The notes under the pieces were generated by a model that was given only the letters and a program-made list of their open reading frames with translations, was not told where the DNA came from and searched no databases. 21,054 nt of DNA from a virus: IMG/VR virus record IMGVR_UViG_3300006641_000227, positions 1-21,054 of that record; one strand, written 5' to 3'. Position numbers and translations under genes: made by a program. Of this stretch, positions 3,664 to 16,670 are shown piece after piece. Numbering within the stretch: position 1 is the stretch's first letter; each line of letters starts with the position of its first letter.

Positions 3664-5742
3664 ATGGACAGGGCTCTCGCTGCCAAGCTCAAGGACAAGT
3701 CGTACCACGACCGGCTGTGCAAGCTGGTTCGTGAGTACGCCGAACTGGGCTTTCGCAACGTCGAGTACTGGGCCCCGGAGTGGGACACGGCGCATGACCT
3801 GATCATGTGCTACGCCCCGCTGACCAAGACCGACTACGAGAAGCTCGAGAAGGGCCACCCCAAGCGATTCGTCCTGCCGATGACGGCGACCCAGGTGACC
3901 ACGATGGCCACCTACATCGCCCAGATCCTCTACGGCGATTCCGCACCGCACAAGGTCGAGCCCCGCGGCCCTGAAGACGAGATCCCGGCCGAGCACATCA
4001 ACACGATGCTCCGCTGGAACGCGGAGCAGCAGCCCACCTACCTGTTGGGCCATCTGTTCGTCCAGGACGTCCTGACGTTCAACCGCGGCATCTTCTACAA
4101 CAGCTGGTCCCCCATCCAGAAGCCGGAGACGGTCGAGGTGGAGGTCGAGGTCCCGGGCGAAGTCGGCGACGACGGACAGCCCGTCAAGTACCTCTCGCAG
4201 CGGCGCCGGATGAAGACCATCGGCGGCTTCTGCAAGTCGGAGTTGGTGTCACCTTACGATTGGATCGCCGACCCCTCGGCGGCCCTGTGGAAGGCCCAGG
4301 AGGGCCGTTTCATGGGCCACCGGTTCAAGCTGCAGTGGACCGAGCTCCTGCGCCGTTCGCGCCTGCCTGTCGACCACCCGGCCTACGTCCGGCCCGAGGC
4401 TGTCGAGGCCCTCAAAAAGAAGAACCGGCCCAACAGCAACCTTCCCCCTTCCCTGACCGGCCACGGCAGCGTGACGGGCACCCGTCCCGACCAGGCGATG
4501 TCCCGGTCGTTCTACGAGCGCCAACGCATCACTGGGCCTCTCGTCGCGGAGACCGCCAACCACGCAGATCCAGGCACCGTCGAGTGCGTTGAGATGTGGG
4601 TGAAGCTGGTCCCCGCCGACCAAGGGATCCACGACGGCGAGGACCTCACGGTCTTCCAGTTCATCCTCGCCAACGGAGACACCCTTCTCAGCGCGGTTGA
4701 GTCGACCTACGACCACGGGATGTTCCCCTACTCGTACGCCGAGGGCCGACCGACCGCCCACTACCAGTTTGGCCCGTCCTGGGCGTTCATGCTCAAGGGC
4801 CTTCAGGACCATGTCGACTATCTAAAGAACCGCCACCAGGAGGCTCTCCAGCGCACCGTCGGCAATGTCTTCGTCGCCAACCCCCACTACGTCGACCTCG
4901 AGGACTTCCTCAACCCGGAGAAAGAGGGCCTTCTCATCCCTCTGAAGCCGTCGGCAGTCGGCCAAAAGATCAGCGACGTCATCCAGCAGGTGCCGATCAA
5001 GGACCTGACCGAAGGCTTCAACGCGGAGATGCAGGGGTTCGTCCAGTACTCGGAGAACGTCACCGGGGCGAACAACTACATGCAGGGCGTGACGGAAGCG
5101 GGTGGCACGGCCACCGAGTTTGCCGGCACCCAGCAGATGGCGGCCGGGCGCATGTCGAGTGTGGCCCGCCTCATCAGCGTCCAGGCCATCGTTCCGCAGA
5201 CCAAGCAGTTCGTCTCGATGTTCCAGCAGTTCCTCGAGGACACGCAGAAGGTGCGGTACGTCGCCGACCCCTTCAGCAGCCCGACGCAGCTCCTGAACGT
5301 CAACGTCCTGGAGATCAGCCGCGACACGGTCCAGGGCGAATTCGACTTTGTCCCCCACGACGGCTCACTGCCGACGGGAGACGCCAAGAAGGTGGCCGGC
5401 ATCGCTCGCCTCCTGCAGGTGGCTGCCGGCTTCCCTCAGGTGTTCGCCCCGGCGCCTGGCAACATCGATCCCCGAGCCCTCATCATCGCCGGCGCAAAGG
5501 CGTCCGGCATCAACGACCTCGAGCGGTTCTACTATGATCCCGCCTCGTTCCCGTCCGCTGTTGCGGGCCAGGTCGGAGCGCAGATGCCAGGCATGGTGCC
5601 CACGGTCGAGCCGCCGCTTCCGCTGCAGCCGCCGGGAGGCGCCCCTCCGGGACCCGCGCCCGCCATGCCGGGACTGCCCGACGTCGGCCCTCCGTCCATC
5701 GAGCCTTTGGCAGCGACGCAGCCTCGTCCTGAGAGCATCTGA
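3664..5742 (+). CDS. Portal protein
   Basis: A 692-residue protein that by size, position and pattern is the portal, the dodecameric ring at one head vertex through which TerL pumps DNA and onto which the adaptor docks. The N-terminal half carries portal-like blocks (YWAPEWDTAHDLI, VLPMTATQVTTMATYIAQIL, LGHLFVQDVLTFNRGIFYN). The long-helix region around 470-530 (GVTEAGGTATEFAGTQQMAA onward, then SVQAIVPQTKQFVSMFQQFL) matches the stem and crown helices of podovirus portals. Residues about 641-692 form a Pro/Gly/Ala-rich tail that probably lies at the flexible C terminus facing the head interior. The gene is followed after 17 bases by the small gene at 5760. The exact portal family is not certain. 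Confidence 0.92.
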   Translation: MDRALAAKLKDKSYHDRLCKLVREYAELGFRNVEYWAPEWDTAHDLIMCYAPLTKTDYEKLEKGHPKRFVLPMTATQVTTMATYIAQILYGDSAPHKVEPRGPEDEIPAEHINTMLRWNAEQQPTYLLGHLFVQDVLTFNRGIFYNSWSPIQKPETVEVEVEVPGEVGDDGQPVKYLSQRRRMKTIGGFCKSELVSPYDWIADPSAALWKAQEGRFMGHRFKLQWTELLRRSRLPVDHPAYVRPEAVEALKKKNRPNSNLPPSLTGHGSVTGTRPDQAMSRSFYERQRITGPLVAETANHADPGTVECVEMWVKLVPADQGIHDGEDLTVFQFILANGDTLLSAVESTYDHGMFPYSYAEGRPTAHYQFGPSWAFMLKGLQDHVDYLKNRHQEALQRTVGNVFVANPHYVDLEDFLNPEKEGLLIPLKPSAVGQKISDVIQQVPIKDLTEGFNAEMQGFVQYSENVTGANNYMQGVTEAGGTATEFAGTQQMAAGRMSSVARLISVQAIVPQTKQFVSMFQQFLEDTQKVRYVADPFSSPTQLLNVNVLEISRDTVQGEFDFVPHDGSLPTGDAKKVAGIARLLQVAAGFPQVFAPAPGNIDPRALIIAGAKASGINDLERFYYDPASFPSAVAGQVGAQMPGMVPTVEPPLPLQPPGGAPPGPAPAMPGLPDVGPPSIEPLAATQPRPESI

Positions 5743-7311: not shown

Positions 7312-8562
7312 ATGCCAGCTGTAAGTGGTTTGCTGTCCCTCGGCTCCCAGATTGCGGGCGGCACGGGGTACAACAGCGACGAGTGGGTGAGCGAGTTCCA
7401 GGACACAATCCTGGTGCGTAACTCGCGGGGTCTCAATGCCGGGACCTCTCTGTTCGGTCTGATGAGCAAGCTCAAGAACGAGCCCTCTGAGACCCTTGAG
7501 TTCAAGTGGTTCGAGCGCGATCCGGTGACCCGGACCGTGTACGCCGATGGTGCTGCCCTCGTCGGCGCCACCTCGATCGTTGTCGATGACGGCCAGTCTA
7601 GCCCTGGCCCGATTGGTGGCATCGTCCAGGTCGGCACGATCCTCCGCAGCTCCTCTGGTGAGCTCATCCGCGTGACTGCGTTCACCAACAACGCCGCTGA
7701 CACCACCCTCACGGTGGAGCGCGGATTTGGTAGCAGCACTGCCGTGGCCCTCACCGACAACGAGGCTCTCGTCGTCGTGACCCTCGGTCAGGGTGAAGGT
7801 GCTTCGCCGGTTTCGGCCGTCTACGAGGCTCCCACCACGCTGACGAACTACATCCAGACGTTCAACAGCGCGGTGAACATCACCAACGCGTTCAAGGCGT
7901 CCAAGCTCCGCACCGACATCGAGGGACCCCTCCGCGAGCGTCGTGTCCAGGCCCTGGAGCGCATTGCCCGCGACATCGAGCTCGCCTACTTCTTCGGTCG
8001 TAAGGCGTTCTCGACCTCGAGCATCAACGGTTCCGGCCGGGCCTACTACACCGGTGGCATCGTCGCTTCCGTCGACGCCATCGGCGCTTCGCCTGAGCAG
8101 AAGCTCAATGGTCAGGGCGGCACTGGTGTCAGCCTCGCGACCTTCAACAGCTGGTTGAGCTCGTTCCTCACCCTCGGCTCTGACGCCAAGCTGGCGTTCT
8201 GCGGCCCGAAGGCGTACAGCGCGATCTCCAACTACGCGAACAGCGGTTCCAACGGATTCCGCATCACCTCGCAGGAGACCGTGTTCGGCATGAACATCAC
8301 CACCATCAACACGCCGTTCGGTGAGTTGAGCCTGGCGATGCATCCGCTGTTCAAGGAGATCGGCACCTACAACGACTGGATGGTCGTGGTCGATTTGGCC
8401 CTCATCGTCCAGAAGGTCATGGAGCCGCTCTTCCTCGAGCCCAACATCCAGACGCCCGGTAGCGACGCCTACCAGGAGCAGTTCCGCGCCAAGTACGGTC
8501 TGAAGCTCAAGTTCGCGCAGGCGTTTGCCTACGCGTACGGCCTGCAGAAGATCACCACCTAA
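7312..8562 (+). CDS. Major capsid protein, SU10-like
   Basis: A 416-residue protein, the main shell subunit of the HK97-fold type. It starts at ATG 7312 with AAAAGGA about five bases upstream. The N terminus (SDEWVSEFQDTILVRNSRGL) is followed by a beta-rich segment (about 78-160, with ATSIVVDDG and VGTILRSSSGELIRVTAF). Next comes a hallmark block of the SU10/DUF5309 capsid family: TLTNYIQTFNSAVNITNAF, then RERRVQALERIARDIELAYF. The C-terminal half includes LAMHPLFKEIGTYNDWMVVV and ends in LKLKFAQAFAYAYGLQKITT. Position after the scaffold agrees. No cleavage site or protease domain is evident, so maturation proteolysis is not indicated by this gene. Confidence 0.94.
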   Translation: MPAVSGLLSLGSQIAGGTGYNSDEWVSEFQDTILVRNSRGLNAGTSLFGLMSKLKNEPSETLEFKWFERDPVTRTVYADGAALVGATSIVVDDGQSSPGPIGGIVQVGTILRSSSGELIRVTAFTNNAADTTLTVERGFGSSTAVALTDNEALVVVTLGQGEGASPVSAVYEAPTTLTNYIQTFNSAVNITNAFKASKLRTDIEGPLRERRVQALERIARDIELAYFFGRKAFSTSSINGSGRAYYTGGIVASVDAIGASPEQKLNGQGGTGVSLATFNSWLSSFLTLGSDAKLAFCGPKAYSAISNYANSGSNGFRITSQETVFGMNITTINTPFGELSLAMHPLFKEIGTYNDWMVVVDLALIVQKVMEPLFLEPNIQTPGSDAYQEQFRAKYGLKLKFAQAFAYAYGLQKITT

Positions 8563-9074: not shown

Positions 9075-9110
9075 GCCGTGCTGGCGGAAACGCTGGCACG
9101 GCTTTTTCCT
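9075..9110 (+). terminator. Strong terminator after the capsid cassette
   Basis: A 12-bp stem pairs 9075-9086 (GCCGTGCTGGCG) with 9091-9102 (CGCTGGCACGGC), with two G-T wobbles, across a GAAA tetraloop (9087-9090), followed by TTTTT at 9103-9107. The frame of the next gene is open through this structure, but its real start is at 9159. Confidence 0.92.
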
Positions 9111-9158
9111 TTAGCTGGGGGACGGTCCGAGTACAGTCCGACGCCATGGGAGGACGAG

Positions 9159-9836
9159 ATGACCTTCGCTGAACTCAAACTGATGCTTTCGCAGGACGTG
9201 AACCGGTCCGACAAGGAAACCCTCTGGTATCCTATCTGGATCAATCGCGCCCTCCGGAAGATTCAGTCCGACGAGACGTTCTCGTTCATGCGGAACCGGT
9301 CGGACGTCGTCATCGCCCAGGGCACGTCTTCCATCGCCCTCCCTGCCCGGTTCAAGCAACTGACCGCCGAGCAGTACCCGGTCACGGTCATCGACCCGAC
9401 CATGGGCACGGGGCCCCTGGCTGAGCTGCCCTGCGAGGTCACCAGCCGCGAGGACATGATCTCCTACCGGGCGTCTACGTACGTCCCGAGCCGTCCGGCC
9501 AACGTCCGCGGCCGCCTGAGCGGCCTGCCCGTCTGGATTGAGAACACCGCGGCGGGCTGGACGCTCAACATCATCGACACGGCGGCCGAGGCCCTGACGT
9601 TCCGGGTCTCGCACTTCGCTTTCCTGGCCGACCTCGCCGCCGACTCGGACAGCAACTATCTCACGACCAACTACCCCGAGCTGGTCGAGAACAAGATCAA
9701 GGCGATCGCGTTTGCGGCGATTAACGACCCAATCGCCGCACAATTTGAGGCGATGGCAGCGCGGCTGTTGTCTGACGCGGTGCTGGACGACCGGCGCCGC
9801 ACGTATCGCGGCCGGGCACTCAGGATGGGAGGATGA
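9159..9836 (+). CDS. Head-tail adaptor protein, SU10-adaptor-like
   Basis: A 225-residue protein that probably binds the portal ring and joins head to tail. The start at ATG 9159 is chosen because GGGAGG lies five bases upstream; the longer frame from 9078 would begin inside the terminator stem. The N-terminal helix block (MTFAELKLMLSQDVNRSDKE, then WINRALRKIQSDETFSFMRN) matches the pattern of connector adaptors in SU10/phiEco32-like phages. A central beta part (SIALPARFKQLTAEQYPVTV; TLNIIDTAAEALTFRV) follows, and the end is helical (NKIKAIAFAAINDPIAAQFE). Its place between the capsid cassette and the tail genes agrees. The family call is by pattern, not search. Confidence 0.78.
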   Translation: MTFAELKLMLSQDVNRSDKETLWYPIWINRALRKIQSDETFSFMRNRSDVVIAQGTSSIALPARFKQLTAEQYPVTVIDPTMGTGPLAELPCEVTSREDMISYRASTYVPSRPANVRGRLSGLPVWIENTAAGWTLNIIDTAAEALTFRVSHFAFLADLAADSDSNYLTTNYPELVENKIKAIAFAAINDPIAAQFEAMAARLLSDAVLDDRRRTYRGRALRMGG

Positions 9837-9839
9837 TCT

Positions 9840-10787
9840 ATGGCAGGCTACCTTGGAGCAGACTTTGACGCGAACCAGCCGGAAAACAGCGACAGCGTGA
9901 AGTTCGGCGCGGAGTGGATCCGCGACCTGAAACGACGCGTGAAGCTGTTCGGCTCCACGCTGTTCAACCTCGAGACCGGTCAGCTGCGCGACAGCGTGGT
10001 GCGGCACGCGTCCCTCGCGGACATGCCGGGCCTGGTGGCGGGCACTTACAATCGGGTCAAGGTCAACTCGAAGGGCCTGGTCTACGAGGGGGCGTCGAGC
10101 TCCGAGCAGCAGACCGCCAACCTCTACACCGCCCTGTTCCAGGCCAACGGCGCCTACGCGGTTGAGCGCAAGGACGCCGTCGCTCTCACGGGCGGAGGCG
10201 GAGCTGTCGATGCGATCTACAAAGGGTCGTTCGACTACGACGGCACCAGCGGTAGCGTCACCCCGCCCTACGACACTGCCTACGCAGTCCGGGGCCAGTA
10301 CGTCGAGTTCGTCTGGTCCCCGCCGTCGGGCGTGCGCCGCGTCAAGGCCACCATCATCGGCGGCGGTGGCGGAGCCTACGTCGGCGCCAGCAACTGGTTT
10401 GGCGGTGGCGGCGGTGAAGCGGCCGAGGCCATCTTCAACCTCGACGGGTCCGGGGTGCAGGCGCTGACCCTAATCGTCGGCAAAGTCGGTCAGAACGACT
10501 CGCCCGGCAGCCCGACGTCCTACGGCGACGGCCTCCCCTCTCGCGTCCGGCTCAGTTCGGCCGTGTACGTCGACGCCGCGGGCGGCAGCAAGGCAACCAG
10601 CTCGGCGGGCGGCGGTGTTGCCACGGGAGCGGCTGCCGGCAGTCTGCTGGTTATCCGATCTGCAGGCACCGCGGGCGCACAGAGCGTCAACGGTCAGTCG
10701 GGCAGCAGCTTCAACAAGTACGGGCGCGGCTCGTCCTCGGGCAGTGTGCTCGGCGACGGCGTCGTGATCCTCGAGTGGCTCCAATGA
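9840..10787 (+). CDS. Glycine-rich tail protein, tandem copy 1
   Basis: A 315-residue protein, probably a tail appendage or fibre. It starts three bases after the adaptor stop with GGGAGG upstream. The N-terminal part (1-110) is a virion-anchor candidate shared with the next gene: GADFDANQPENSDSVKFGAE, then WIRDLKRRVKLFGSTLFNLE and YNRVKVNSKGLVYEG. A boundary segment VEFVWSPPSGVRRVKATIIG leads into a Gly/Ala/Ser-rich region (about 174-300, with GGGGGAYVG and WFGGGGGEA) and the end GDGVVILEWLQ. The 'W..P.GV..V...IIGGGGG' pattern is that of glycine-rich domains found in phage tail and adhesin proteins, where packed glycine helices present exposed binding loops. Host recognition is a likely role, by inference. 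Confidence 0.8.
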   Translation: MAGYLGADFDANQPENSDSVKFGAEWIRDLKRRVKLFGSTLFNLETGQLRDSVVRHASLADMPGLVAGTYNRVKVNSKGLVYEGASSSEQQTANLYTALFQANGAYAVERKDAVALTGGGGAVDAIYKGSFDYDGTSGSVTPPYDTAYAVRGQYVEFVWSPPSGVRRVKATIIGGGGGAYVGASNWFGGGGGEAAEAIFNLDGSGVQALTLIVGKVGQNDSPGSPTSYGDGLPSRVRLSSAVYVDAAGGSKATSSAGGGVATGAAAGSLLVIRSAGTAGAQSVNGQSGSSFNKYGRGSSSGSVLGDGVVILEWLQ

Positions 10788-10790
10788 CCT

Positions 10791-11615
10791 ATGGCCAAGC
10801 TCGGCGCAGACTTCAACGCTTCGAGCCCGACGGAGGCTGACTTCGTTCGGCACCCGTCGAAGCCCAACCTCACCACCGAGATTCGGTTCATCCGCTCTCG
10901 GCTCAAGGCGTTCTTTGACCCGCTGTTCCAGCTGGAGAACGGCGACTTCAAGGACAACGTCATCCCCCAGGCGGCCATCGTCGACCACCCCGACAAGCCC
11001 AGCAGCAACGGGCTGCAGTACACGTCGGTCACCGTCGACAAGCGCGGGTTTGTCATCGACGGGTCGACGGACCAGCTGCTGACGCTGCCGCGGCACTTCC
11101 GTGCGTTTTTTTCGTCCCAGGGCGCTTTCATCGAGGCACCAGATGGTGTCGGCACCAACCCGGCGTCGACGCTGACCCCGTGGCCCGACAACCGCATCCC
11201 CTGGGAGACGCAGTACCGCTCGTTGCCGCAAGTGTACCCCTACAAGTTCATCGTGCCGGCCGGAGTGCGTCGCCTAAGCGTTTCCTTGTTCGGTGGCGGG
11301 TGGAAGTTCGGGAGTGCTGCGATCGCCCCAGAGCAGCCCAAGCACCTGTTTGTCAACGCGGCCGTCACGCCTGGAAACAAGTTCGACGTGTGGGTCGGCG
11401 GCAGCGACAGCCCGTCCGTCCTGGCCCGCATGGAGGCCGAGTCGTTCTGCACGACCGAAGGCTACATCAAGAATCTGTCGAGCCCGACCGCGGGCTATCC
11501 GGACGCCGGGATCGCCCGGAATCCGCCGGCCATCTACCGCCCGTACGGGGACAACGGCGCTTCCGCCAATCAGCTGGGCACGCCTGGCTGCGTAATCATC
11601 GAATGGTATGCGTAG
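10791..11615 (+). CDS. Tail protein, tandem copy 2 (glycine core lost)
   Basis: A 274-residue paralogue of the preceding gene. Shared features in order: MAxLGADF(D/N)A at the start, a helix with IR.RLK.F..PLFQLE.GDFKD, VTVDKRGFVIDG against VKVNSKGLVYEG, then PAGVRRLSVSLFGGGW (156-171) against PSGVRRVKATIIGGGG, and the end GCVIIEWYA against GVVILEWLQ. Between the last two blocks the long glycine region of copy 1 is replaced by an ordinary beta-type sequence (VNAAVTPGNKFDVWVGGSDS). The start lies three bases after the previous stop with no clear ribosome site, so translation is probably coupled. A related but differently specific tail appendage is the likely role. Confidence 0.8.
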   Translation: MAKLGADFNASSPTEADFVRHPSKPNLTTEIRFIRSRLKAFFDPLFQLENGDFKDNVIPQAAIVDHPDKPSSNGLQYTSVTVDKRGFVIDGSTDQLLTLPRHFRAFFSSQGAFIEAPDGVGTNPASTLTPWPDNRIPWETQYRSLPQVYPYKFIVPAGVRRLSVSLFGGGWKFGSAAIAPEQPKHLFVNAAVTPGNKFDVWVGGSDSPSVLARMEAESFCTTEGYIKNLSSPTAGYPDAGIARNPPAIYRPYGDNGASANQLGTPGCVIIEWYA

Positions 11616-13743
11616 GACGAACTCGATTGAGATCAAGGTCAACGCCCCGTCCAAGGGCCTCCAGACCCGTCTCCCGCCCGACCTCCAGGACGACGGCAAG
11701 TCCCAGTACCTGACGGTCGCTGAGAACGTCCGCGCCGAGCGTGGCGAGCTCAAGGCGGCGCCAGGCTACGAGCGCGTCCACCTCCCCAACGAGCAGCTCG
11801 ACGGTCAGGTCAACCTGATCCACCAGCCCAACCTCACGTCGTCCGACGCGGAGATCCAGAACCAGCCGGTGGTTGGGACAGAGGGCAGTCTGTACTCGAT
11901 GGCCAAGCGCGCCCGGACGCTTGTCTGCCCGGCGGACTGCACGTTGAGGTTCGCGGCCGTTTCGGACAGCGGGCGCGTCGACGGAGCGGCGGCAGATGTC
12001 GGCAAGCTCGTCCGGGGCTGGGGCCCTGAGCTCGTAGTCCACGCCGGCGACCTCGCCTACAGTGCGGGCGGGACAGCAGCGGACGACGACAAGTACGAGA
12101 CCCAGGTGGCCAAGCATTACTACTGGGCGATCGGCGGGTACCGCGGCCAGTACGGAACGGGGCCCGACATCAACGGGTTCTTCCCGGCCCTGGGCAACCA
12201 CGACTACACCGACGGGCCTTTGTCGCGGTTCCTGACCTTCTTTAACCTGCCGAACAACGAGCGATGGTACACGATCAAGCGGGGCCCCGTTCAGTTCTTC
12301 TTCATCGATTCGTACGGCTACGGCCCGTCCGCCCCCGGGCCTGGCGGGAACAACATTGGTGGCACGGGGGCGGCAGCCGGAGTCGGATCGGCTGACTTGT
12401 CCTCGACGGGCCCCCAGGGCCAATGGCTCCAGGCTCAGTTGGCGGCATCCGACTGCCCGTGGCGCATCGTGGTTTTCCACCACTCGCCGCAGACCAGCGA
12501 GTCGGGCTACTACCCCGGCTACGAAGTGATGAACTGGCCGTTCGCCCAGTGGGGCGCCGACCTGCTCATCACGGGCCACGCGCACGTCTACGAGCGCATC
12601 CTTCGCGCTGACGGGATCCCTCAGCTGACCATCGGGCTCGGCGGTCAATCCGTCCGCAACTTCGTCGCGACGCCGCTCCCGCAGTCCCAGTTCCGGTACA
12701 ACGGCGACTACGGAGCCCTCCTCGTCGATGTCAGCAGCACCAGCCTGACGACCAAATTCTACAGCCGGGCAGGTACCCTCATCGACACGATGACGCGGAC
12801 GACGGCTCGCCCGCTCAGTGTCTGCTACACCGGCACCATCTCCAAGCAGGCGACTCAGCTCGAAGTCATCCCGCCGACTCTGTCCCTGCCCCAGGACGTC
12901 CCGTTCCCGCTGACGGCCACGGCCAAGTTCAACGACGGCACCGCCCTCAACGTCACGGCGGGGTCCAGCTGGACCTCGTCCAACACGTCTATCGCAACCG
13001 TCGATTCGTCCGGCGTCGTCACCGGATTTTCCACGGGCGTCTCGACCGTAACCGCCAACTACCAGGGCTTCACGGACACCTGCGTGGTCACTGTCTTGCC
13101 CGACTGCGCCGACGAGAAGCACGACATTGCCTTGGTGCTGGACCGGTCGGGGTCCATGGCATGGATGAACCCTCCGCAGGGCACCCGAGTCGACCGCCTC
13201 AAAATCGCGGCCAACCTGTTCCTAGACTCTCTCAAGGAAGGTGACGAGGTCGCCACGGTGTCCTTTGCCAGTGAGGTGAAGCTCCACCATGGACTGACCT
13301 CCGACTACAGCCAGTCACAGACGGCCATCAATTCGCTCAGTGCGTTTGGCGGGACGGCCATCCCGGAGGCTGTCGCTACGGCGCGGGAGGAGCTGCTCAA
13401 GAACGGACGGACGGGAGTCAGAAAACTCATCGTCTTGTTCACCGACGGCCTGGCGAACATCTCTCCCTTCTGCAACTACGACGTCGATTGCGCCATGGCG
13501 GCGGCGACCGTCGAGTTCAACGGCGCCAAGGACAACGGCATCACTTGCATCGTGGTAGCCCTGGACGTGGCGATCTACGGACTGAACTACGAGGACATCA
13601 TCCGCGGGTGGCCCACCTGCCCCTCGCTCTACTACTCGGTCGTCGACACGGGTGACCTGGGCCCGGTGTTTGTCGTTCTTCGCAACAACGTGTGCGTCAA
13701 CCCGTGCTCGTCGGGGTCGGGCATCGGTCTGGGTCTGATTTGA
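11608..13743 (+). CDS. Multi-domain virion protein: metallophosphatase, BIG2 and vWA
   Basis: 711 residues. Residues 1-105 look like the start of a phage connector or tail protein (PSKGLQTRLPPDL; AENVRAERGELKAAPGYERV; VNLIHQPNLTSSDAEIQNQP). Residues about 112-400 are a purple-acid-phosphatase-like metallophosphatase: D120 (VSDSG), GDLAY (147-151), GNHD (196-199), HH (291-292) and GHAHVYER (323-330) preserve the metal ligands. Residues about 417-497 are a BIG2 Ig-like domain (WTSSNTSIATVDSSGVVTGF). Residues about 505-690 are a von Willebrand A domain with MIDAS DRSGS (512-516), T583 and TDG (612-614). There are 12 cysteines and no signal peptide or membrane helix. Its first eight bases overlap the previous gene. 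Probably a virion enzyme/adhesin; the substrate is unknown. Confidence 0.9.
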   Translation: MRRTNSIEIKVNAPSKGLQTRLPPDLQDDGKSQYLTVAENVRAERGELKAAPGYERVHLPNEQLDGQVNLIHQPNLTSSDAEIQNQPVVGTEGSLYSMAKRARTLVCPADCTLRFAAVSDSGRVDGAAADVGKLVRGWGPELVVHAGDLAYSAGGTAADDDKYETQVAKHYYWAIGGYRGQYGTGPDINGFFPALGNHDYTDGPLSRFLTFFNLPNNERWYTIKRGPVQFFFIDSYGYGPSAPGPGGNNIGGTGAAAGVGSADLSSTGPQGQWLQAQLAASDCPWRIVVFHHSPQTSESGYYPGYEVMNWPFAQWGADLLITGHAHVYERILRADGIPQLTIGLGGQSVRNFVATPLPQSQFRYNGDYGALLVDVSSTSLTTKFYSRAGTLIDTMTRTTARPLSVCYTGTISKQATQLEVIPPTLSLPQDVPFPLTATAKFNDGTALNVTAGSSWTSSNTSIATVDSSGVVTGFSTGVSTVTANYQGFTDTCVVTVLPDCADEKHDIALVLDRSGSMAWMNPPQGTRVDRLKIAANLFLDSLKEGDEVATVSFASEVKLHHGLTSDYSQSQTAINSLSAFGGTAIPEAVATAREELLKNGRTGVRKLIVLFTDGLANISPFCNYDVDCAMAAATVEFNGAKDNGITCIVVALDVAIYGLNYEDIIRGWPTCPSLYYSVVDTGDLGPVFVVLRNNVCVNPCSSGSGIGLGLI

Positions 13744-14492
13744 TGAAGATCGTCTACAGCCACTGGTCTCGGCAGCCGCTGACCGCAGACAAACGGATCA
13801 TCCTCGCGCTCTCGGTTCTTCTGGCCAGGCGCCACTATCAGCAGATCGAGATGGTCACTGATGATGCGGGGGCCTCCTTATTCCGAAAGATGGGGCTGGA
13901 GTTCAGCAAGGTCAGCCTGTCGATGAATGATTTTCGGGCCGACAAAGAAGCCTGGGCGGCTGGCAAAATCCACGCGTACGCCCTGCAGGAAGAGCCGTTC
14001 GTCCACATCGATCACGACGTCTTCCTGTTCGAGCCCCTGCCCGAGTGGTGGACGTCGGCGCCCGTGGGCGCCCAGGACGACGAGCCGCGCTACCGCTACG
14101 ACGAGTCGCTGACCAAGGTCCACCCGCCCCACCGAAACCTGGTCGCCTTGCCGGACTACAACTGGCACGCCTACAACACGGGCATTTTTGGGGGCCACGA
14201 CCTGGACTTCATCCGGGGCTACGCCAACGAGGCGTTGAAGCTCATTCACGACCACCCGTGCTTCCACTGGTGGGCGATGCCTGTCTACGAGCAGGCGTTC
14301 CTGTCGAAGTACGCGCACGACAGAAAAAGGGAGGTCACGTTGCTGCTGAAGGACCACGACGAGGCCGAGGACCTGGGCTACTGCCACCTCATGGAGTGCA
14401 AAAACCGCCCCAACTGCGTGTCCCGGGTGTACATGCGCCTGCAAAGTGAGGACCGGGACCTGTACCGGAGGGCGATCCTTGCCGGCGACTGA
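13743..14492 (+). CDS. Glycosyltransferase-like protein, DUF6734
   Basis: A 249-residue protein starting at ATG 13743, whose A is the last base of the previous TGA, so translation is coupled. The order of motifs matches the DUF6734 family as I know it: MKIVYSHWSRQP at the start, LALSVLLARRHYQQIEMVTD, then KEAWAAGKIHAYALQEEPFV. Next come an acidic DHD (D90-H91-D92) in HIDHDVFLFEPLP and NTGIFGGHDLDFI (145-157). The DxD-like triplet and 'N.GIFGG' block resemble GT8-type nucleotide-sugar glycosyltransferases, so transfer of a sugar to a virion or host molecule is plausible but unproven for the family. It is embedded in tail genes, an uncommon position for such an enzyme. Near-complete length. Confidence 0.82.
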   Translation: MKIVYSHWSRQPLTADKRIILALSVLLARRHYQQIEMVTDDAGASLFRKMGLEFSKVSLSMNDFRADKEAWAAGKIHAYALQEEPFVHIDHDVFLFEPLPEWWTSAPVGAQDDEPRYRYDESLTKVHPPHRNLVALPDYNWHAYNTGIFGGHDLDFIRGYANEALKLIHDHPCFHWWAMPVYEQAFLSKYAHDRKREVTLLLKDHDEAEDLGYCHLMECKNRPNCVSRVYMRLQSEDRDLYRRAILAGD

Positions 14493-14514: not shown

Positions 14515-14524
14515 AAGGAGGACC
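14515..14524 (+). promoter_or_regulatory. Strong ribosome-binding site of the nozzle gene
   Basis: AAGGAGGACC stands directly before TATGG. The same 15 bases, AAGGAGGACCTATGG, recur at 18530-18544 before an internal virion protein, which suggests both genes are translated at a high level. Confidence 0.8.
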
Positions 14525-14525
14525 T

Positions 14526-16670
14526 ATGGCTTTGCAGTTCGCTGGCATCCTGAAGAAAATCTACTCGGGCGCTGACACCGCACGCGCTCGACGCTGGGTG
14601 GCTGCGGACTACATCGACCGCGTCCTTTTTGCGTCACCGTCGGTAGCTCCCCTATTTTGGCCAGGTTCCGGGAGCGCACGCCCGATTCCGGGCCTCCCCG
14701 ATTCTGACGGGTACGATGGGGTCGAGGTGTTCGACAACCACGTCCTGCTTTGGAGGGAGTCGACCCTCAAGTGGAGCGACCGGAACGATTTTGGCCTCTG
14801 GATCCCTGTCGCAATCACCGCGGCAGCCGGGTCGGCGGTCCTCGAGTCGGACCTCGTCCTGACCGCGACAGGCACGACCACCACGGCAGCGTATTTGACC
14901 GAATTGGCGGGTGAGTTTGTGTCAGGTCAGTTCGTCCGGATGGTCAGCTACGAGACCGACCCGACGGCGATCCTGTACGACTACTTCCGAGTCCGTCAGG
15001 TCGCTCTGGAATCCATCCAGAGCATCACGAGCATCAAGCGGCCCCAGACCGCGGCGGCCGGCGCCAAGACCCGGATCTACCTGGACCGGTACAACTCCTG
15101 GATCGACTGGACAACCGGCGCCCGGCTCAAGATCAACGGGGTCTCGACCCAGCTTAAGATCACGGACCGGTCCCGGAACGCCAACTACGACTTCCCGACG
15201 TCGGGTATCAGCCCCGTCGTGCCGGAGATTGGCGGCAAGCTGGTCATGCCGTTCGCCCGCGTGAACGCCGAGATGCAGGCCAGCGACACGGTGTCTGTCG
15301 GCCCGTCGGCGGACCCCGGCCAGGATCTCTACGAAATCACTGACCCGCCCTCCTATTCGGTGACCATGCGACGGCTCGGGATCGGCGACAAGGCGTCGGG
15401 TACGCTGTGGCCCAGCGGCACCATCGTCAGCTTCCAGAATTGGGTGGAGGTCGAGAACGTCGGATCGAGCGACGTTGCGATCCCCGGAGAAGCCACCGTT
15501 TCCGTCCTGGATAGCCTCATTCTCGAGCCCCTGGGATTCACTGGTGGCACGGCGCCGGGAGCGAAAATCCCCGCTGGCACCGCGGTCGAAACGATCAATG
15601 CCAATGCGTCGGGCGAAGTGCTCAACGTCGGATCTACGATCAACGGAGACATCTTCGGATGCGTCACCCTGGCGGAGTACTGCTACATCCTGAAGAAACG
15701 GTCCATCCAGAGCATGCAGAGCGTCGGGCCGGCGTCCGGGACGTTCTTCATCCGGCCTGAGATCCTCGACGAGGGGCCCATCGGCAGGTACGCGTGGTGC
15801 CGTGCCGGCGACCGTGAGATCGCCCTGATTGGGAACAAGGGGATGTACCTCTACGGAGGCGGCCAGAACCTGCGTCCCTTCGCGATCCAGCATTGGGAAG
15901 ACTTCCGCGACGAGGTGGACTGGGCCCGGGCAGACGAGATCGTTGCCCACCATCACCGGCGCGACAACGAGGTGTGGTTCGTCTACCCGACCAAGCTGGG
16001 CGAGACCAAGTGTTTCGTCTTCAACTACGTCGAGAACAGCGTCGTGCTGGACCGCTACCCCTCGCAGCTGAACGGCATCACTGCCCTGGGCCGCGTCGAC
16101 TGGGAGTTGGCCCCCACCTGGGAGTCGTTGGATGTTACCGAGCGGTGCAATGGAGCGGCCAAACGGTGGTACGAGTACGTCGATGAGCCCGAACGGGAAT
16201 ACACCGTGATGGCGGCGGGCGGCGACACGGGGAACAAGATCCTGGGTGAGGATCCCAACGAGGAGTACCCGCGCCTGCTGGTCCACGGCCGCGTCTGGTC
16301 ACGTTCGTCGAACGACGACTGCAACCCGACGGCCATCGCCAGCCTCGCCGAGACGCCAGACTTCGATTTCGGCGACCCCACGCTCTGGAAGTACGTCGAC
16401 ACGGTGTTTGTTATCCTTAACGGGAAGCAAAACGTGCCCGAAGGGGCTGTTTTGACGGTCACCGTGGGGGCTCGGGACAACCTCAACAGTCCCATCCGGT
16501 GGTCTGAGCCCCAGGAACTGTCGATCACAGAGGCTGGGTCCGGCCCGACCAAGATCAACGCGACGGTCAGCGGGCGGTACCTGCGCCTTCGGTTCGCGTC
16601 GGAGGCGGTGGGGGCCAATTGGGGTATCACAGCGTACCACATCACGGCCCGCCGCGGAGGAACCTACTGA
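14526..16670 (+). CDS. Nozzle-like tail protein
   Basis: A 714-residue protein with a very strong ribosome-binding site. It is beta-rich throughout. The region YCYILKKRSIQSMQSVGPAS (about 387-406), followed by FFIRPEILDEGPIGRYAWCR, IALIGNKGMYLYGGG and NEVWFVYPTKLGETKCFVFN, is the repeated 'hostile-strand' pattern of the beta-propeller in podovirus nozzle proteins, which close the tail tube below the adaptor. The C-terminal part (about 590-714) holds another beta domain (VDTVFVILNGKQNVPEGAVL; YLRLRFASEAVGANWGITAY). It is the largest complete gene together with the vWA protein. The alternative is a large tail-wall or stabilisation protein of another type. The end overlaps the next start by one base. 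Confidence 0.75.
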   Translation: MALQFAGILKKIYSGADTARARRWVAADYIDRVLFASPSVAPLFWPGSGSARPIPGLPDSDGYDGVEVFDNHVLLWRESTLKWSDRNDFGLWIPVAITAAAGSAVLESDLVLTATGTTTTAAYLTELAGEFVSGQFVRMVSYETDPTAILYDYFRVRQVALESIQSITSIKRPQTAAAGAKTRIYLDRYNSWIDWTTGARLKINGVSTQLKITDRSRNANYDFPTSGISPVVPEIGGKLVMPFARVNAEMQASDTVSVGPSADPGQDLYEITDPPSYSVTMRRLGIGDKASGTLWPSGTIVSFQNWVEVENVGSSDVAIPGEATVSVLDSLILEPLGFTGGTAPGAKIPAGTAVETINANASGEVLNVGSTINGDIFGCVTLAEYCYILKKRSIQSMQSVGPASGTFFIRPEILDEGPIGRYAWCRAGDREIALIGNKGMYLYGGGQNLRPFAIQHWEDFRDEVDWARADEIVAHHHRRDNEVWFVYPTKLGETKCFVFNYVENSVVLDRYPSQLNGITALGRVDWELAPTWESLDVTERCNGAAKRWYEYVDEPEREYTVMAAGGDTGNKILGEDPNEEYPRLLVHGRVWSRSSNDDCNPTAIASLAETPDFDFGDPTLWKYVDTVFVILNGKQNVPEGAVLTVTVGARDNLNSPIRWSEPQELSITEAGSGPTKINATVSGRYLRLRFASEAVGANWGITAYHITARRGGTY

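Follow-up and report, generated by a model that had tools for sequence, protein, structure and literature searches.

In short-tailed phages, the tail nozzle serves as a conduit and a fibre-docking ring, and it is a single chain in the solved structures compared here. In the Kuravirus SU10, the nozzle protein gp17 (PDB 7z47, 7z4f, 7z4b) combines a platform, a seven-bladed propeller, and inserted nozzle domains, in the order N-terminal platform, blade 1, blade 2, nozzle-domain insertion, blades 3–7, and C-terminal platform (PMC9509320). The nozzle hexamer of SU10-type tails is seated on the adaptor, and blade 1 carries the loop at which the short tail fibres dock (PMC9509320). The closest solved relative of the nozzle described below, in both sequence and fold, is the Pa223/Clew-1/LUZ24-type nozzle (PDB 9nwi chain Y; phrog_3287), an undecorated single chain of 513 aa in Pa223. 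Two further protein families are relevant. Purple acid phosphatases from plants, mammals, and bacteria (PDB 1kbp, 1ute, 6git) have a common fold and the motifs GDxxY, GNHD, and GHxHxYER, while LapA-type and pilin adhesins (PDB 9no5, 7b7p) carry von Willebrand A (vWA) domains with a metal-ion-dependent adhesion site (MIDAS) on surface-displayed proteins. A phage-encoded phosphatase of the same type, the purple-acid-phosphatase-like gp26 of the Microbacterium siphovirus Rowlf, has been reported with no assigned role (PMC12352085).

The window analyzed here spans an entire IMG/VR virus record (21,054 bases), a metagenomic contig that represents a fragment of an SU10-related short-tailed phage genome. 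Its portal, capsid, and adaptor match SU10 Pfam models, the adaptor being homologous to that of SU10, and the gene at 11608-13743 sits within this structural module:

1353-2915: terminase
3664-5742: portal (Pfam SU10_portal)
7312-8562: capsid (Pfam SU10_MCP)
9078-9836, + strand: adaptor protein (Pfam SU10_adaptor, E 2e-10)
9840-10787 and 10791-11615: two fibre-like genes
11608-13743, + strand: decorated anchor gene (chain A), 711 aa, an uninterrupted ATG frame
11608-11919, + strand: nozzle N-terminal fragment (the ‘anchor’), residues 1-104, assigned by anchor profile search and alignment
11935-12807, + strand: purple-acid-phosphatase-like metallophosphatase, residues ~110-400 (Pfam, PDB matches by sequence and fold, motifs)
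12847-13098, + strand: BIG2 Ig-like domain, residues ~414-497 (Pfam Big_2, beta structure with high pLDDT)
13111-13698, + strand: vWA domain with complete MIDAS, residues ~502-697 (Pfam VWA_2/VWA, fold, MIDAS)
13699-13743, + strand: C-terminal tail CSSGSG(I/V)G..LI and stop codon, read from the sequence
13743-14492, + strand: DUF6734 gene (Pfam DUF6734, E 4e-37), between both nozzle halves
14515-14521, + strand: AAGGAGG (Shine-Dalgarno), 4 nt upstream of the core ATG
14526-16670, + strand: nozzle core gene (chain B), 714 aa (phrog_3287 virion protein, E 2e-25)

The two adjacent fibre-like genes have related N-terminal halves and differing C-ends, which suggests two fibre types with a common docking end.

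The initial annotation had described the 711-aa protein as a connector- or tail-like N-terminus of about 105 residues joined in one frame to a metallophosphatase, a BIG2, and a vWA domain. The uninterrupted frame and its three domains are borne out by Pfam, an AlphaFold2 model, and PDB matches. Pfam places Metallophos at residues 113-328 (E 2e-14), VWA_2 at 508-614 (E 9e-19), and VWA at 506-652, all above the curated cut-offs, and Big_2 at 416-485 (E 5e-6; 26.8 bits versus a gathering cut-off of 22.8). The model has a pLDDT of mostly 70–90 across the three domains and below 50 for residues 1-109, and a fold search of the PDB matched it to vWA domains and to mammalian purple acid phosphatases. 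Specifically, Foldseek pairs the phosphatase domain with 1ute and 1qhw (probability 1.00, E ~3e-8), and the vWA domain aligns with other vWA domains at VIA-align Z-scores of ~20-22, so that structure prediction, proposed at the outset as a check, returned both folds along with confident beta structure for BIG2. Tested against the purple acid phosphatase motif set (DxG, GDxxY, GNH(D/E), H, GHxH), the window protein matches throughout with DSG, GDLAY, GNHD, HH, and GHAHVYER. The metal-ligand residues are D120, D148, Y151 (the tyrosine ligand), N197, H291/H292 (motif IV), H324, and H326. Similarly, the MIDAS of the vWA domain is complete (DRSGS 512-516, T583, D613). None of the PADLOC anti-phage defence profiles matched. 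The window phosphatase has the motifs and fold of purple acid phosphatases; unlike those listed above, it shares one chain with a phage nozzle fragment, a BIG2 domain, and a vWA domain. Likewise, the vWA domain differs from the LapA-type and pilin domains in being borne by a phage tail protein. The available description of Rowlf gp26, from which the likeness is taken, mentions no nozzle fusion, BIG2, or vWA (PMC12352085).

The whole architecture recurs in the same order and at full length in six other IMG/VR contigs (L002-L006 and L060), which answers the initial proposal to look for it in viral metagenomes. Full-length identity to the window protein is 57-61% for L002, L003, and L004-L006 and 44% for L060; a more distant full-length relative, L012, has 32-33% identity, and L028 is a partial relative at a contig end. 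Since the window is a metagenomic contig, an assembly chimera or a gene broken in one genome might be suspected. However, full-length proteins of the same architecture, with 44-61% identity to that of the window, come from several metagenome data sets, which rules out an assembly join and leaves this explanation a vanishingly small probability. Relatives carrying the domains as separate genes, which would have pointed to such a join, were looked for and not found. The domain order is neither chance nor an assembly artifact because it is present in several independently assembled contigs. The C-terminal tail is kept in L002, L003, and L004, and not in L060.

Conservation is uneven along the protein. 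Identity to the window in L060, L002, and L003, respectively, is 51%, 71%, and 73% for the anchor; 53%, 68%, and 63% for the phosphatase; 30%, 51%, and 46% for BIG2; and 34%, 47%, and 45% for vWA. Within the arm, conservation is thus highest in the phosphatase (53-68%, versus 30-51% for BIG2 and 34-47% for vWA), which is more constrained than the distal domains, and the divergence of vWA outside its metal site is what we would expect if its ligand varies. The phosphatase motifs and the MIDAS are all kept in L002-L006 and L060, and the MIDAS is retained in every complete orthologue, L012 included. In L012 (13506-16049), all five phosphatase motifs are lost (VGNTA, GNAIA, GYGE, VLYNCP, and SASPTYEE stand in their place), and the phosphatase domain region and fold are kept, together with the DxSxS, T, and D of the MIDAS. 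The L012 domain is, judging from these substitutions, a natural pseudo-enzyme, so catalysis is not essential everywhere. This relative, together with the other split nozzles discussed below whose arms have no recognized enzyme, would fit an arm that is purely structural or ligand-binding, with a phosphatase that is non-catalytic in the virion. We regard that reading as unlikely, because neither the window nor L002-L006 or L060 has lost any metal-ligand motif, and no other part of their arm is as well conserved as the phosphatase.

The N-terminal residues identify the protein to which this arm is attached. A profile built from the anchors of the window, L002, L003, and L060 alone was run (E <= 0.01) against the 12,849 ORFs of all fetched loci, and its only matches were N-termini, either in nozzle genes or in anchor genes lying upstream of a nozzle core. 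Two homologues, L079 and L090, have undecorated single chains of 804 and 817 aa, respectively, in which residues 1-93 are matched by the anchor profile and, with no insert between, everything from residue 103 or 110, respectively, to the end by the core profile. Along the same lines, L008, L009, L010, L014, and L016 each have one gene of 868-1019 aa encoding the same ~60 N-terminal residues, an insert, and then a homologue of the core. Given the single-chain homologues and the anchor profile matches, residues 1-104 and the 714-aa ORF at 14526-16670 are, by homology, two parts of one nozzle chain. The initial reading of a connector or tail protein was therefore correct in its likeness to a virion tail protein; the segment is a fragment of a nozzle of the P22 gp10/SU10 gp17 family rather than a connector or a whole tail protein.

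The core matches phrog_3287 over positions 208-523 of 524 (E 2e-25) and comprises the later propeller blades, the inserted nozzle region, and the C-terminal platform. Its fold was approached through the modelled single-chain relative L008, whose core has the Pa223, VP1, SU10, and P22 nozzles as top PDB matches. Residues 293-869 of the L008 model align with residues 52-511 of the Pa223 chain at Z 28.9; the SU10 nozzle gives Z ~25-26, P22 gp10 Z 24.9, and the crAss001 muzzle was also matched. The model of this relative thus predicts the propeller and platform fold of the nozzle family. In L043, the core contains HYDIN/ASH-type Ig domains, apparently where SU10 has its nozzle domains.

By alignment, residues ~1-57 of the anchor would form the N-terminal platform part and residues ~66-104 the first strands of propeller blade 1, which places the chain break directly after the GTxxxLYSM strand, where blade 1 of SU10 is still being built. 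How the anchor packs in the nozzle is read from sequence alignment because the anchor is of low confidence in the models of both the window protein and L008. The N-end of the Pa223/Clew-1 nozzle aligns weakly with the anchor. A PDB-wide sequence search with the anchor profile alone matched no solved nozzle; it gave a weak match to 8vb0 (E 0.002), a short decoration protein. The anchor probably folds only within the nozzle completed by the 14526-16670 product.

SU10 gp17 is one chain without an enzyme or vWA domain, whereas the window encodes two chains; at blade 1, where the short tail fibres of SU10 dock, the window chain is split and carries the arm. A different solution is seen in the LamG nozzles, for which we found no published description. 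In L008 and L009, Pfam identifies the insert as LamG-type, lectin-like, and L014 and L016 have a similar insert region. These proteins have the same anchor and core and place their appendage at the same platform/blade-1 junction, as an insert in one continuous chain, where the window has a chain break with phosphatase-BIG2-vWA.

In the window, the nozzle is not one continuous chain: the N-terminal platform and blade-1 segment is present, but on a separate gene, and the two genes have their own starts with a stop codon and the DUF6734 gene between them. The start of 11608-13743 overlaps the stop of the preceding fibre-like gene (10791-11615), and its stop overlaps the DUF6734 ATG at 13743 (TGATG); the GTG listed at 13692 is unlikely to be the DUF6734 start. 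L002-L006 have a similar DUF6734 gene at this location, as apparently does L060, judging from the position of its gene and the start of the sequence. In L012, no DUF6734 gene lies between the anchor and core genes, and the core starts 4 nt after the anchor gene stop; in L017, the anchor stop and core start overlap. Rfam searches of the window, L043, L012, and L017 found no intron. A frameshift, intron, or intein joining the halves was considered and rejected, given the conserved tail in close orthologues, the DUF6734 gene that comes next, the strong Shine-Dalgarno sequence that the core has of its own, and the Rfam result. The two chains look separately translated from one operon. In a tree of capsid and portal, which has long branches, split and fused nozzle forms interleave.

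The same anchor bears other arms elsewhere. In L017, it is followed by PKD and a propeller-like region, and in L053, by two PKD domains and DUF5122 propeller repeats, in each case before the core. L081 and L083-L086 have the same split with short arms of no recognized fold. L043 (5801-10853) and L088/L089 (L088 17255-22536) look like a LamG-bearing nozzle interrupted in or near LamG by other ORFs. L038 (6329-9572) has a 132-aa bare anchor gene and a 417-aa anchor-PKD gene before a single 529-aa core, and in contig 3300032561_000025 (L044, L097), the anchor gene lies ~15.6 kb from the core. Methyltransferase and glycosyltransferase-25 genes precede the core in this last contig.

This range of arms bears on a phosphatase that has no place in the virion and, for instance, scavenges phosphate in the infected cell, its gene lying by chance among tail genes. 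Such an accessory enzyme is highly improbable: a conserved nozzle fragment forms the start of the protein, the gene overlaps its neighbors in the tail operon, and in other phages unrelated arms are attached to this fragment. Another possibility is that the anchor is only a docking tag, with a self-sufficient core and an anchor protein that uses the old platform contacts to bind the adaptor/portal side as a separate accessory spike. This arrangement is supported by L038, where a single core is accompanied by two anchor-bearing genes, and by the ~15.6 kb separation in 3300032561_000025. Complementation of one chain by the other, however, better fits both the retention of blade-1 strands besides the platform strands and a core start point that is identical in several split lineages, and we consider a mere tag quite unlikely.

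We favor, as a probable reading, a nozzle built from two polypeptides, in which chain A (11608-13743) brings the displayed enzyme and adhesin arm and chain B (14526-16670) the rest. Chain A would contribute the strands of the N-terminal platform together with those that begin blade 1, then leave the nozzle where the chain normally continues, displaying the phosphatase, the BIG2 spacer, and the vWA domain outside the tail; chain B would provide the remaining nozzle, the two chains completing each other non-covalently. By analogy with SU10, the product may be a hexameric ring on the adaptor, with up to six decorated subunits round the tail and the arms on its outer side near blade 1, close to the docking place of the SU10 short fibres. 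Strict one-to-one pairing of the chains may not hold, given the two anchor genes and one core of L038. Going by the domain families, vWA may bind a cell-surface ligand via its MIDAS metal, and the phosphatase may hydrolyze phosphate ester or diester bonds in a polymer of the envelope or capsule. An N-terminus that anchors an enzyme and an adhesin to the tail, as initially proposed, agrees with a tail-protein fragment and intact metal sites; adhesion and host contact would follow from the domain families.

Neither the 711-aa protein nor the 714-aa core matched any of 50,697 records of isolated phages (E 1e-5), and a genome scan for a host with the orthologue alignment gave no match. The only host hint is one match in a portal scan, to the Verrucomicrobiales MAG contig L053 (JAISCS010000021.1). 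No further match came from searches across its order and phylum, so L053 may represent a co-binned phage.

Neither the domains nor the nozzle family is new. The open-licence literature searched yielded no split nozzle and no nozzle with a phosphatase or vWA domain, nor any virion protein with this domain order, as the initial annotation had supposed, so the split and the order are both new to that literature. A two-chain display platform, in which the N-terminal chain acts as a cassette and its arm can be exchanged with the core untouched, is conceivable and, in our tentative view, has slightly less than an even chance of being correct; viruses of the L038 type could then mix decorated and bare anchors in one ring. 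For annotation, when a nozzle gene looks truncated, a similar short or odd gene upstream of it becomes recognizable as the missing part. If the two-polypeptide nozzle is correct, a phage tail would carry a metal enzyme along with an integrin-like vWA domain, and the completion of the propeller by a second chain would illustrate how host-contact modules can be exchanged on a conserved tail core.
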